Shown: positions 53,675-57,829 of the stretch, piece by piece
Numbering within the stretch: the first letter of the stretch is position 1
Layout: every line of letters begins with the position of its first letter
Origin: an uncultured Clostridia bacterium
Lineage (GTDB): Bacteria > Bacillota > Clostridia > Oscillospirales > Ruminococcaceae
Direction of reading: 5' to 3'
Length of the DNA stretch: 64,000 nucleotides
NCBI GenBank assembly: GCA_947627465.1
Contig: CANQWD010000002.1
Location: 62,001 to 126,000 of the forward strand
Made by a program: the position numbers and the translations under genes
The notes under the pieces: generated by a model
What the model saw: only the letters and a program-made list of their open reading frames with translations
The model's database searches: none
What the model was told of the DNA's origin: nothing

Positions 53675-56089
53675 ATGGACTTTAAAACCTTACTGAACAA
53701 AGAATTTATCTCGCTTGACGGCGGCATGGGAACAATGCTTCAGGCACGCGGACTTAAACCGGGCGAAACGCCCGAAGCGCTGAATTTGGAGAAACCGCAG
53801 ATACTTATCGACATTCATAAAGAGTACATTGCGGCGGGCGCGGATATCGTTTACGCGAACACGTTCGGCGCAAACCGCTATAAGCTGGAGCACTGCGGCT
53901 ATACCGTCGACCGCGTTATCCGCGCGGGTATTTTGAACGCGAAAAAAGCCGTCGCCGAAAGCGAAAACCCCGAGGCTCTTGTGGCTCTCGATATCGGTCC
54001 TATCGGGCAGCTTTTGGAGCCTACCGGCACGCTGACTTTTGAAGAAGCCTATGATATTTATAAAGAACAAGTCGAAGCGGGCGGTGAAGCGGACGTTATC
54101 GTTTTTGAAACAATGACGGATCTGTACGAGCTGAAAGCTGCCGTTTTAGCCGCCAAAGAAAACTCCAACTTGCCTATAATCTGCACTATGACGTTCGAGG
54201 AAAATATGCGAACGTTCACGGGGTGCGCATTATCCTCAATGGCTCTGACATTAGAGGGCTTGGGCGTTGACGCTGTCGGCGTGAACTGTTCTCTCGGTCC
54301 CGCGGAGCTTTACCCCGTCGCCGAGGAGCTGTGCAAATGGACAAATCTTCCCGTGGTTTTGAAGCCCAACGCGGGACTTCCCGACCCCGTCACCAACGAA
54401 TATAACGTATCTCCGAAGCAGTTCGCCGAGCTTATGGAAAAGATCGTGCCGCTCGGCGTGAAGATATTCGGCGGATGCTGCGGCACAAATCCCGAGTTTA
54501 TCAAAGAACTTAATTTAATGCTGAAAACGCAGAAATTCAATAAAATCAATCACGAAATACCCGCCGCTTGCTGTTCGGCAAGCAAAACGGTCGTGATAGA
54601 CAGACCGAGAATTATCGGCGAACGCATAAACCCCACGGGCAAAAAGCGCTTTAAGGAAGCGCTTCTCGCGGGCGATATTGACTACATTATCGGACAGGCT
54701 ATCGAGCAAGTCCACGGCGGCCAGAGCCCGGCTGGTGGCGCCGATATTCTGGACGTAAACGTCGGACTTCCCGGCATCGACGAGGGCGAGATGATGATAC
54801 GCGCCGTGAAAGCCGTTCAAGGCGTGGTGGACGTGCCGTTACAGGTTGACAGCACAATTCCCGAGGTCCTCGAGAAGGCGCTCAGAGTATACAACGGCAA
54901 GCCGATAGTAAACTCGGTAAACGGCGAGGAAAAGAGCCTGCAAACGGTTTTGCCGCTTGTTAAAAAATATGGCGCGTGCGTTGTGGGCTTAACACTCGAC
55001 GAAAACGGAATACCCAAAACCGCCGAGGGACGTTTCCAAATCGCGGAGCGTATTCTTGAACGTGCCATGGCTTTGGGAATACCGAAAGAGAACGTGTTCA
55101 TCGACTGTTTAACGCTCACCGTTTCCGCCGAACAGGACGCGGCAATGGTGACGCTTGAAGCCGTCCGCCGAGTTAAAACGGAGCTTGGACTGAAAACGGT
55201 TTTGGGAGTATCGAACATCAGCTTCGGACTTCCCGAGCGCGTTATCGTCACGCATAACTTTCTCACAATGGCGCTGCAAAGCGGGCTCGATCTGCCCATC
55301 ATCAACCCCAACGTCGCGGATATGACAGGCTCGGTGAGAGCGTTCAACGTGTTGGCGGGCTATGACAAAAACTCGCTTGAATACGTGGCGGCTTACGGCG
55401 CGAAAAAGGACGCTCCCGTTTCGGCTAACGCCGCAAACGCTCCGAAACAGGATATAGACTTAAATTACGCGATTGAAAACGGAATGAAAGCCGAGGGCGC
55501 GAAAATCACCGAGGAGCTTCTGAAAACCACCGACCCAATGGAGATAATCAACGGGCTTTTGATACCCGCGCTTGACAAAACGGGATCGGAATTTGAAAGC
55601 GGCAAAATTTTCCTGCCGCAGCTTATCCTAAGCGCGGGGGTCGCTCAATCGTGCTTTGAAGTGATAAAAAATCACTTCGCGAAAACAGGCGCGAAATCCG
55701 TATCAAAAGGCAAGATAATTCTGGCTACCGTAAAGGGCGATATTCACGATATCGGGAAGAATATCGTGAAGGTGCTGTTGGAAAATTACGGATACGACGT
55801 GATAGACCTCGGAAAGGACGTGCCATACGAAGCGGTCTTAAACACCGCCGTTGAACAGAACGTGCATTTGATAGGGCTTTCCGCGCTTATGACCACCACT
55901 CTCGCGAGTATGGAAAAAACCATTGCTTTGCTGCATGAAAATAACGTTGACTGCAAAATAATGGTTGGCGGCGCGGTGCTTACTCCCGAATACGCCGAGA
56001 AAATCGGCGCGGATTACTACGCCAAGGACGCTAAAGAGAGCTGCGATATTGCGAAACGCGTCTTTGAGGAGTTTTACCCGCACGGATAA
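53675..56089 (+). CDS. metH: Cobalamin-dependent methionine synthase, short form
   Basis: 804 residues against about 1230 for E. coli MetH. Homocysteine domain (1-300) has GGMGTMLQARG and zinc Cys in GVNCSLGP and GGCCGTNP. Pterin domain (about 310-590) has IIGERINPTGKKRFKEAL and VNVGLPG. The cap and B12 domains (about 610-804) have GDIHDIGKNIVKVLLENYG with the axial His. The activation domain is absent and is supplied by the preceding gene. It transfers methyl from methyl-THF to homocysteine. GGAGGTTAGCAGCAAA precedes the ATG. Confidence 0.95.
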   Translation: MDFKTLLNKEFISLDGGMGTMLQARGLKPGETPEALNLEKPQILIDIHKEYIAAGADIVYANTFGANRYKLEHCGYTVDRVIRAGILNAKKAVAESENPEALVALDIGPIGQLLEPTGTLTFEEAYDIYKEQVEAGGEADVIVFETMTDLYELKAAVLAAKENSNLPIICTMTFEENMRTFTGCALSSMALTLEGLGVDAVGVNCSLGPAELYPVAEELCKWTNLPVVLKPNAGLPDPVTNEYNVSPKQFAELMEKIVPLGVKIFGGCCGTNPEFIKELNLMLKTQKFNKINHEIPAACCSASKTVVIDRPRIIGERINPTGKKRFKEALLAGDIDYIIGQAIEQVHGGQSPAGGADILDVNVGLPGIDEGEMMIRAVKAVQGVVDVPLQVDSTIPEVLEKALRVYNGKPIVNSVNGEEKSLQTVLPLVKKYGACVVGLTLDENGIPKTAEGRFQIAERILERAMALGIPKENVFIDCLTLTVSAEQDAAMVTLEAVRRVKTELGLKTVLGVSNISFGLPERVIVTHNFLTMALQSGLDLPIINPNVADMTGSVRAFNVLAGYDKNSLEYVAAYGAKKDAPVSANAANAPKQDIDLNYAIENGMKAEGAKITEELLKTTDPMEIINGLLIPALDKTGSEFESGKIFLPQLILSAGVAQSCFEVIKNHFAKTGAKSVSKGKIILATVKGDIHDIGKNIVKVLLENYGYDVIDLGKDVPYEAVLNTAVEQNVHLIGLSALMTTTLASMEKTIALLHENNVDCKIMVGGAVLTPEYAEKIGADYYAKDAKESCDIAKRVFEEFYPHG

Positions 56090-56110: not shown

Positions 56111-56142
56111 CCCCGAATTGCTTCGTGCTTCGGGGGATTTTT
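56111..56142 (+). terminator. Intrinsic terminator after metH
   Basis: CCCCGAA (56111-56117) pairs with TTCGGGG (56129-56135); GATTTTTTT follows. Confidence 0.75.
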
Positions 56143-56154
56143 TTGTCGATAATA

Positions 56155-56183
56155 TTGACATCTCCGACAATTTGTGATATAAT
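56155..56183 (+). promoter_or_regulatory. Consensus SigA promoter of the riboswitch unit
   Basis: TTGACA (56155-56160), 17-nt spacer, TATAAT (56178-56183). Confidence 0.85.
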
Positions 56184-56199
56184 AATGAAGTTCATGAGA

Positions 56200-56502
56200 A
56201 ACGCGGCGGATCGCTTTTATAGGCGTTGCTGAACGGGAAACCGGGAGGCGGCAAGGGAACAGGAGTGAAATTCTTCGGCAGCAGCCACTATCGTTTAATA
56301 CTAATTCATGATCGGAGTATAGACAAGATTTGCTGCGAGACCGTACCTAGCGCGAGGAAAAGCTCCTTGGCGTACTGTATGTACGCCAAAGGAGCTTTGA
56401 CGAAGCGATAGGTGCGGGATTGCTGCAAAGATGTCTATACGTAGATTATGAATTAGTATAAGCCTTAACACAGGCTTTAAAGTCGGAATGCTTGCCCCGC
56501 CG
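56200..56502 (+). promoter_or_regulatory. Cobalamin riboswitch, interrupted by a MITE
   Basis: The 5' half has the core AAGGGAACAGGAGTGAAATTC then GGCAGCAGCCACTATCG, matching the AGGGAA..GGUGAAA..GC.GC..CCACUGU core of cobalamin riboswitches. The 3' half, AAAGTCGGAATGCTTGCC (56479-56496), matches the closing GUCAGGA..CUUGCC. Outer stem P1 can form from CGGCGG (56204-56209) and CCGCCG (56497-56502). A 160-bp palindrome (56299-56458) separates the halves. Without it the aptamer would be about 140 nt with a short peripheral arm. Further hairpins at 56508-56531 and 56575-56599, near the next start codon, could form the expression platform. Confidence 0.75.
56299..56458. mobile_element. 160-bp palindromic MITE with TAA target duplication
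   Basis: The ends TACTAATTCAT (56299-56309) and ATGAATTAGTA (56448-56458) are perfect inverted repeats. GTATAGACA and TGTCTATAC, and AAAGCTCCTTGGCGTAC and its near-complement, continue the palindrome to a 5-nt centre. TAA (56296-56298 and 56459-56461) flanks both ends, the 3-bp duplication expected from IS5-type (TNA) insertion. It carries no open frame. I saw no second copy in the window. Confidence 0.8.
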
Positions 56503-56609
56503 TGAACGTTTTTTCGCGAACGCGAAAAAACTCGCGAAAAGGCTCTTGGGCGAATGAAGAGCTGCTTTCGCTTTCTTTTCGGACAAATAAAACGAAAAGA
56601 GGACAAACA

Positions 56610-57296
56610 ATGAAAAGAACAACAAAAATGCTCGCGGCGGCGGTGCTTGCCATGACATTGGCTCTGACGGGCTGCGGCGAAAAGACAACGTCTACGTCCG
56701 CTCCGACAGGCTCCGCGACAAATTCTTCGGCAAGTTCGATTGAAAATTCAACGTCAAACTCGACCGAGAATTCAACGGCAAGTTCGACGGAAAATTCCGC
56801 GGAAAGTTCAGCGGAAAATTCCGCGGCAAGTTCGACCGAAAATTCCGCGGCAAACTCGGAAGAAAATTCGGAAACAGGCGCAGTTTCCAATATCTGGGCG
56901 AACGCGCAGTACACCGAGGACACTGAGCTTGGCGAGGGCGCGCACACGATCAAGCTTGAAGTCAAAGCGCTTGACAAGAGCGTAACGCTTACCGTGCACA
57001 GCGAAAACGACAATCTTGAAAAGATACTTGTTGAGAACAAGCTGGTTGAGGGCGATAACAGCGAGTACGGTTTGTATATCAAAAAGGTTATCGGTATCTC
57101 GGCGGATTACGACGCGGACGGCGCTTATTGGGCGCTTTGCAAGGACGGCGAGATGACCGCGACGGGCGCTTCGGGCATAACGATAGCGGACAACGATCAC
57201 TATGAGCTTGTCTACACGCCCGCAGATAATTCGGCGAACACAGGCAGCGCCGCTTCCGACGCGGCAAGCTCCGAGGCTGTTGACGCCGCCGCTTAA
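56610..57296 (+). CDS. DUF4430/transcobalamin-like lipoprotein
   Basis: 228 residues. The lipoprotein signal ends LTGC. A linker of about 70 residues repeats Asn-Ser-(Thr/Ala)-(Ala/Ser)-Ser-Ser-(Thr/Ala)-Glu units. The domain at about 105-205 (HTIKLEVKALDKSVTLTVHS..NLEKILVENKLVEGD, then DADGAYWALCKDGEMT) matches the DUF4430 fold related to the cobalamin-binding C-terminal part of intrinsic factor/transcobalamin. Position behind a cobalamin riboswitch and in front of an ECF S-component supports a surface corrinoid-binding role (inference). ATG 56610 follows GAGGACAAACA. Confidence 0.8.
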   Translation: MKRTTKMLAAAVLAMTLALTGCGEKTTSTSAPTGSATNSSASSIENSTSNSTENSTASSTENSAESSAENSAASSTENSAANSEENSETGAVSNIWANAQYTEDTELGEGAHTIKLEVKALDKSVTLTVHSENDNLEKILVENKLVEGDNSEYGLYIKKVIGISADYDADGAYWALCKDGEMTATGASGITIADNDHYELVYTPADNSANTGSAASDAASSEAVDAAA

Positions 57297-57829
57297 TGAA
57301 CGAGCCGAAAAAGCGCAAAAAGCCGCTTATCACTGTTCGTGAAACGGTGGTTTTCGCGATGTTGGGGTCTATAATGTACTGCTCCAAAATAATGATGGAA
57401 TGGGCGCCGAACATTCATCTTCTGGGAATGTTCACGATAACGTTCACGATATGCTACCGCGTAAAGGCTCTTATCCCGATCTACATATACGTTTTGCTGA
57501 ACGGTGTGTTTTCGGGGTTCGCGATGTGGTGGATTCCGTATCTGTACATTTGGACGATACTGTGGGGTGTTACAATGCTGCTCCCGAAAGATCTTCCCGA
57601 CAAATTCGCGTGGATCTATCCGATTATATGCGGACTTCACGGGCTGGCGTTCGGGACGCTCTACGCGCCCGCGCAGGCGATAATGTTTCATTTGAATTTC
57701 AAGCAGACTGTCGCTTGGATTGCGGCGGGGCTTCCGTTTGACGCGGTTCACGCCGTTGGAAATTTCGCCGCGGGTTTTTTGATTTTCCCCTTGGTGAAGC
57801 TGATACGCAAGATCGAAAAGCTCAGCTGA
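57296..57829 (+). CDS. ECF transporter S-component, probably for cobalamin
   Basis: 177 residues with about six hydrophobic helices. The N-terminal ITVRETVVFAMLGSIMYCSKIMM is the basic/helix-1 pattern of S-components, which dock on shared EcfT. The substrate is not readable from sequence, but the gene overlaps the DUF4430 lipoprotein gene by one base under a cobalamin riboswitch, so corrinoid uptake is the likeliest role. ECF A/A'/T genes are not in the window. It ends the operon. Confidence 0.8.
   Translation: MNEPKKRKKPLITVRETVVFAMLGSIMYCSKIMMEWAPNIHLLGMFTITFTICYRVKALIPIYIYVLLNGVFSGFAMWWIPYLYIWTILWGVTMLLPKDLPDKFAWIYPIICGLHGLAFGTLYAPAQAIMFHLNFKQTVAWIAAGLPFDAVHAVGNFAAGFLIFPLVKLIRKIEKLS

Follow-up and report, generated by a model that had tools for sequence, protein, structure and literature searches.

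Judged from its sequence, the region 56201-56504 of the window (the whole analyzed stretch of 64,000 nucleotides) is a cobalamin aptamer of class II (RF01689, AdoCbl-II), carrying a MITE in the apical extension of P6. The insert is a hairpin in itself, which in folding calculations makes it nearly neutral for the aptamer, and we consider it rather probable that the switch still works, or largely works, despite the element. The element, its target duplication, empty sites in relatives, covarying helices and a near-neutral folding cost are shown by computation.

The interrupting element and its target duplication are:

56299..56458, strandless entry: palindromic MITE of 160 bp with TIRs TACTAATTC/GAATTAGTA, no ORF being reported for its matches
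56296..56298, + strand: TAA target duplication, left copy
56459..56461, + strand: TAA target duplication, right copy

The palindrome is imperfect, and its RNA folds at -97.4 kcal/mol, with a long duplex at the tip, compared to a mean of -38.1 kcal/mol (sd 3.6) for 200 shuffles (z -16.7, none of the 200 being as good). The element is short and non-coding, has TIRs and a target duplication, and occurs in several genomic places. In particular, the repeat family is matched in 18 of the 43 genomes of the genus at E <= 0.001, and among the 12 other distinct copies with both flanks readable, eight are flanked by identical TNA triplets and four are not. The 2.5-Mb draft genome from which the window comes (G000:C2:62001-126000) holds seven further matches, all of them partial. 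Ten copies are full-length (160-162 bp); the one in the window shares 78.6-85.5% identity with the other nine. None of the ten is more completely paired than this copy, and one is more stable. Its terminal branch in the ten-copy tree is 0.10 substitutions per site, including the time before insertion, so that the insertion age is only bounded.

The 3-bp TNA duplication, short TIRs and lack of coding capacity are shared with TNA-targeting MITEs of the IS5 type and others. A difference is that no transposase with these TIRs was found in a PF01609 search: the 43 genus genomes yielded 32 matches, and of the 30 loci examined none is flanked, at IS distance, by both TIRs with no more than one mismatch each. 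At one of them (L161) weak TIR-like strings with one mismatch lie 2.2 kb apart and do not read TACTAATT.

The aptamer consists of the following parts, the MITE lying between the two strands of P1, of P3 and of P6:

56202..56209, + strand: P1, 5' strand CGCGGCGG, formed in the unconstrained fold whether or not the MITE is included
56250..56255, + strand: P3, 5' strand GGCAAG, covarying with 56491-56496 among relatives
56260..56277, + strand: first junction hairpin, presumably P4
56280..56289, + strand: P5, second junction hairpin, with L5 GCC at 56284-56286
56291..56293, + strand: P6, 5' strand UCG, 97.5% of cells paired, middle pair CG/UA/GC
56459..56479, + strand: remaining hairpin of the P6 extension, UAAGCC..GGCUUUA (counterpart AUGAGCC..GGCUUUA in L105 and L107)
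56484..56490, + strand: P6, 3' strand CGG, and J6/3 AAUG
56491..56496, + strand: P3, 3' strand CUUGCC, with covariation
56497..56504, + strand: P1, 3' strand CCGCCGUG, in the unconstrained fold

In the five-row alignment of four relatives with the joined flanks of the window, pairing extends to 97% of the helix cells, a level reached by 0 of 500 shuffles, six pairs change on both sides, and the covariation score is above all 500 shuffles; further pair types show no excess there (10, the shuffles having 11.3, with 466 of the 500 as high). The alignment of 69 matches, which is fitted to the model and contains related rows, some weak class-I-like rows and a misplaced 3' half in the window row, has 90% of cells paired (0 of 500 shuffles; 97.5% in P6, 92-100% in P3), with 278 double-sided changes compared to 84 in shuffles. 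Among relatives, then, covariation is seen in both P3 and P6, the two strands of each being separated by the MITE in the window.

Leaders that have this core in uninterrupted form precede the orthologous lipoprotein gene in genus relatives, one of which, L107 (CANRFR010000015.1), is syntenic with the window, having metH upstream (92% identical over 220 aa) and the DUF4430 lipoprotein and ECF S-component genes downstream (the S-component being 85% identical over 175 aa). Its leader aligns through the insertion point, reading CGUAUGAGCC..GGCUUUAAAG; once the MITE and one TAA are removed, the window reads CGUUUAAGCC..GGCUUUAAAG at this place. The original prediction that the core motifs of an aptamer flank the 160-bp palindrome thus holds: both halves are present, and the core aligns to intact relatives. 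The continuous aptamer expected on removal of the element with one TAA has a natural syntenic counterpart in L107, the empty site that was to be sought in relatives, with the core aligning to four of them. Likewise, the TAA copy that was supposed to restore the peripheral hairpin on the 3' side does complete UAAGCC..GGCUUUA. In L098 and L017 the extension hairpin is absent altogether (CGUAACAGUCGG, CGUGAAAGUCGG).

The segment that received the insert is the variable one. Length differences of no more than 0-2 nt are seen across 35 copies in J3/4, in the first hairpin, in the P5 stretch and in J6/3, while the P6 apical segment ranges from 7 to 31 nt; among the 68 copies other than the window it is 7-32 nt in 67, the remaining one (L137, a weak class-I-like match) having 81 nt. 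In the window this segment is 190 nt, or 27 nt without the MITE and one TAA. The insertion site was also considered as proof of selection, an argument that was dropped, as six of the ten TNA sites of the aptamer fall in the same P6 loop.

As to the family, RF00174 (class I) had been proposed, and this assignment has to be replaced by RF01689, since intact genus relatives match the latter. RF00174 has no match in the window and none above the cut-off in the whole genome (the best, elsewhere, scores 14 bits), and it is not among the matches listed for the intact relatives L016-L019, L096, L098 and L105, in which lower-scoring overlapping matches of the same clan are omitted. The Rfam scan of the window gave no family above cut-off, and with RF01689 the 5' half of the interrupted window alone scores 14.1 bits (cut-off 36.5); natural uninterrupted relatives stand in for a scan of the joined flanks of the window. 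Among the intact genus relatives L098 exceeds the cut-off (42.4 bits), and L019 (35.1), L017 (33.0), L096 (31.5), L105 (24.8), L016 (24.3) and L018 (23.5) remain below it. L098 coincides with the window at 74 of 75 positions outside the P6 extension. In total, the cut-off is reached by three of the 27 scanned loci of intact relatives (L066, L071 and L098). RF01689 under-calls this group: two of the 20 R1-matching loci L063-L082 reach its cut-off.

The architecture agrees with class II. The P3-P6 four-way junction with its conserved helices, J3/4 GGGAA, J6/3 ending in GGAAUGC and a short P6 region (the 27-nt apical segment counted without the insert) are present, and the P7-P11 domain is absent; unlike known members, the window has the 190-nt apical segment, owing to the MITE. 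R1, a covariance model of the relatives, matches the 5' half of the window with 36.7 bits; this match ends on its 3' side inside the MITE, so that the true 3' half is not joined. R1 has matches in 58 of the 295 genomes of the order, which is no count of class-II switches, since low-scoring matches include class-I-like RNAs (L101, L104, L137).

A 33-base aptamer motif is common to seven named contigs, all of them gut-type Clostridia/Oscillospiraceae/Ruminococcaceae MAGs. Two successive class-II-like leaders occur in L016 (G011:C189, 782-865 and 1334-1416), and behind each of them lies a small lipoprotein-like reading frame; P3 and J3/4 bases are diverged in the first copy.

The surroundings of the aptamer contain the following features:

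53675-56089, upstream of the aptamer: metH-like gene with homocysteine S-methyltransferase, pterin and B12 domains
56121..56144, + strand: terminator-like hairpin with a T run, closing the metH-like gene
56155..56183, + strand: sigma-70 type promoter TTGACA-17-TATAAT, 12/12 match
56534..56571, + strand: P13-like hairpin, L13 GGC at 56549-56551 being complementary to L5 GCC
56574..56602, + strand: hairpin over the Shine-Dalgarno region, found in 8 of 10 leader copies
56610..57296, + strand: DUF4430 lipoprotein gene, intact, 228 aa (PF14478, 28.3 bits, cut-off 23.8)
57296..57829, + strand: ECF-transporter S-component-like gene for a 177-aa membrane protein (6fnp_A, E 1.9e-6)

Terminator-like sites number two in the region, counting both strands, at 0.6 expected, and a similar TTGACA..TATAAT stretch lies upstream of the leaders of relatives. 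Both downstream genes are open. The 177-aa protein has no Pfam or NCBIfam match; its only solved relative by sequence is 6fnp_A, presumably the cobalamin transporter ECF-CbrT. At more distant DUF4430 genes of the order, class-I RF00174 switches are found at 7 of 16 loci, which fits cobalamin as the ligand. The Ser/Asn-rich linker of the lipoprotein contains a 12-bp coding repeat (56712-56869).

L5 (GYC) and the downstream hairpin (GRC, located in the loop or at it) are complementary in all ten leader copies, a count that comes from nine sources and concerns three bases with no shuffle control. Five copies, including the window, have GCC/GGC, three GUC/GAC and two GUC/GGC. GRC is also found in other unpaired stretches of seven of the ten copies, and the complementarity is supportive of a kissing loop rather than conclusive. 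Moreover, L13 of the window is one base longer than in the nearest relatives (GGGCGAAUG vs GGGCAAUG or GGGCAAUUG). An L5-L13 kissing loop and translational OFF control are described in PMC11260477, and by analogy with these the switch would repress translation in a ligand-dependent manner.

From these data we infer the ligand, the OFF direction and the survival of function. The class-II switch would control translation of a B12-uptake operon composed of the DUF4430 lipoprotein and ECF S-component genes. A TNA-targeting MITE inserted at a TAA of the P6 apical extension, outside the four-way-junction core. Transcription would start near 56190, the 5' half being made first, followed by the MITE hairpin, then by the extension hairpin and finally by the 3' half. 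The MITE may close on itself as a 160-nt hairpin next to what remains of the extension, a hairpin of 6 bp, after which P6, P3 and P1 would form across it, with P4, P5, J6/3 and the L5-L13 contact still possible. Cobalamin would bind the junction and L5 would dock on L13, so that the Shine-Dalgarno region stays covered and translation is most likely lowered.

The folding calculations, made for RNA alone (ligand, tertiary contacts and co-transcriptional folding being outside the model), show the cost of this arrangement. The unconstrained optimum of the leader lacks P3, both with the MITE and without it. With the aptamer helices forced, the leader lies 10.7 kcal/mol above the optimum when empty and 12.3 kcal/mol with the MITE, a difference of 1.6 kcal/mol. 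For 200 shuffled inserts the cost is 16.4 kcal/mol (sd 2.7), or about 5.7 kcal/mol above the empty site, and five of the 200 are as low as the MITE and one as low as the empty site. When only P3, P5 and P6 are forced, the cost is 9.5 kcal/mol empty and 11.1 kcal/mol with the MITE, and 60 of 60 random perfect palindromes also give 11.1 kcal/mol. Since random palindromes cost the same as the MITE, and shuffles more, it is the self-pairing of the insert that is predicted to protect the aptamer. Thus, the suggestion that the aptamer might still be foldable is borne out as a computed cost, and the element, which was expected to stack as an added arm, is placed in the predicted fold beside the extension hairpin above P6. 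In five relatives the same P3, P5 and P6 pairs cost 2.6-8.6 kcal/mol, below both values for the window, so the window aptamer, even when empty, is predicted to dominate less than theirs do.

The loop that took up the insert is probably one that tolerates extra length, around which the switch can still fold. As the MITE folds on itself within it, the core helices and the L5-L13 contact can still form in the model, and the switch most likely still binds cobalamin. Against a working switch we count the optimum without P3, the high folding cost and the extra L13 base.

The insertion may instead have broken the switch, the long hairpin mis-folding, delaying or sterically blocking the junction or the kissing loop and leaving the operon without B12 control, in which case the core would look intact merely because the insertion is recent. 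This is a serious if unlikely possibility. It is consistent with the excess of the window's folding cost over the five relatives and with the additional base in L13. Moreover, B12 control is lost in selected M. tuberculosis mutants with transposon insertions in the metE B12 riboswitch: according to PMC3603451, a screen for loss of this control gave mutants of which 20 were examined, and all 20 had insertions in the riboswitch region. Both cases concern an insertion in a B12 riboswitch, but those are selected laboratory mutants with control lost and a much larger transposon, and that case involves no natural element in a tolerated loop. A broken switch is also disfavored by the position of the insert in a naturally length-variable segment and by its small cost of 1.6 kcal/mol. 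Finally, the MITE has no near-identical sibling (at most 85.5% over the full length; 91% over 55 bp for the closest match in its own genome), a pattern that hardly points to a very recent burst, though a donor may be missing.

Alternatively, the MITE hairpin could be a processing or stability element, with RNase III cutting the duplex and P3, P6 and P1 keeping the two pieces of the leader together; such cutting would set the mRNA level or would make RNase III, besides B12, a determinant of the response. RNase III is likely to accept a duplex of 160 nt as a substrate, which counts against a working switch. Processing is favored by the long duplex at the MITE tip and by the cleavage of MITE-bearing transcripts (Correia elements) by RNase III, reviewed in PMC10969869. 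Still, nothing in the sequence requires processing and a single such insertion is seen, so we hold this explanation to be improbable. The reading of the palindrome as a native oversized P6 arm, for which the 81-nt segment of the single weak class-I-like match L137 could be cited, is ruled out for practical purposes by the syntenic L107 copy without the palindrome (unless L107 lost it precisely with one TAA) and by the occurrence of this element, with TNA duplications, at other places in the genus.

The nearest published case comes from the pneumococcal trp operon, in which a BOX element separates two T-box leaders (PMC3049150). There too a MITE-like repeat lies in a riboswitch leader, the pieces are said to fold largely independently and control is apparently kept; in contrast, BOX is situated between two complete T boxes, while here the MITE interrupts a single aptamer and parts the strands of its helices. 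PMC10969869 calls MITEs forming riboswitches conceivable. Searches of open-access literature gave no report of a transposable element that sits within a natural riboswitch aptamer and has been kept there.

If the switch works, it would be a natural ligand-binding RNA that keeps its function with a mobile element between the strands of its core helices, the two halves of the aptamer meeting again because the insert pairs with itself. The idea that peripheral riboswitch domains grow when hairpins insert could then be tested directly. A broader proposal is that a natural riboswitch has retained a transposable element as one of its structural arms, with B12 sensed across a 160-nt mobile hairpin, and that palindromic mobile elements are inserts structurally compatible with RNA aptamers and can remodel peripheral domains. 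This proposal is a doubtful one; if true, large P6 extensions, the class-I domain among them, might have originated in this way. Split aptamers of this kind are missed by standard covariance searches, and similar cases may be hidden.

The scan for promoters and terminators found neither an outward promoter nor a + strand terminator inside the MITE; a terminator-like site is present there on the - strand (56391-56365). The same genome also carries an internally deleted relative of the element, 101 bp long and with a TTA/TTA duplication (G000:C11:44125-44227; L002/L003). At L101 (G033:C8), where R1 matches a class-I-like cobalamin riboswitch (AGCCGGGAGACCTGCC) on the - strand, the inverted pair TACTAATCCCACT...AGTGGGATAAGTA is found within about 50 nt downstream, apparently a related MITE adjoining a second B12 switch.
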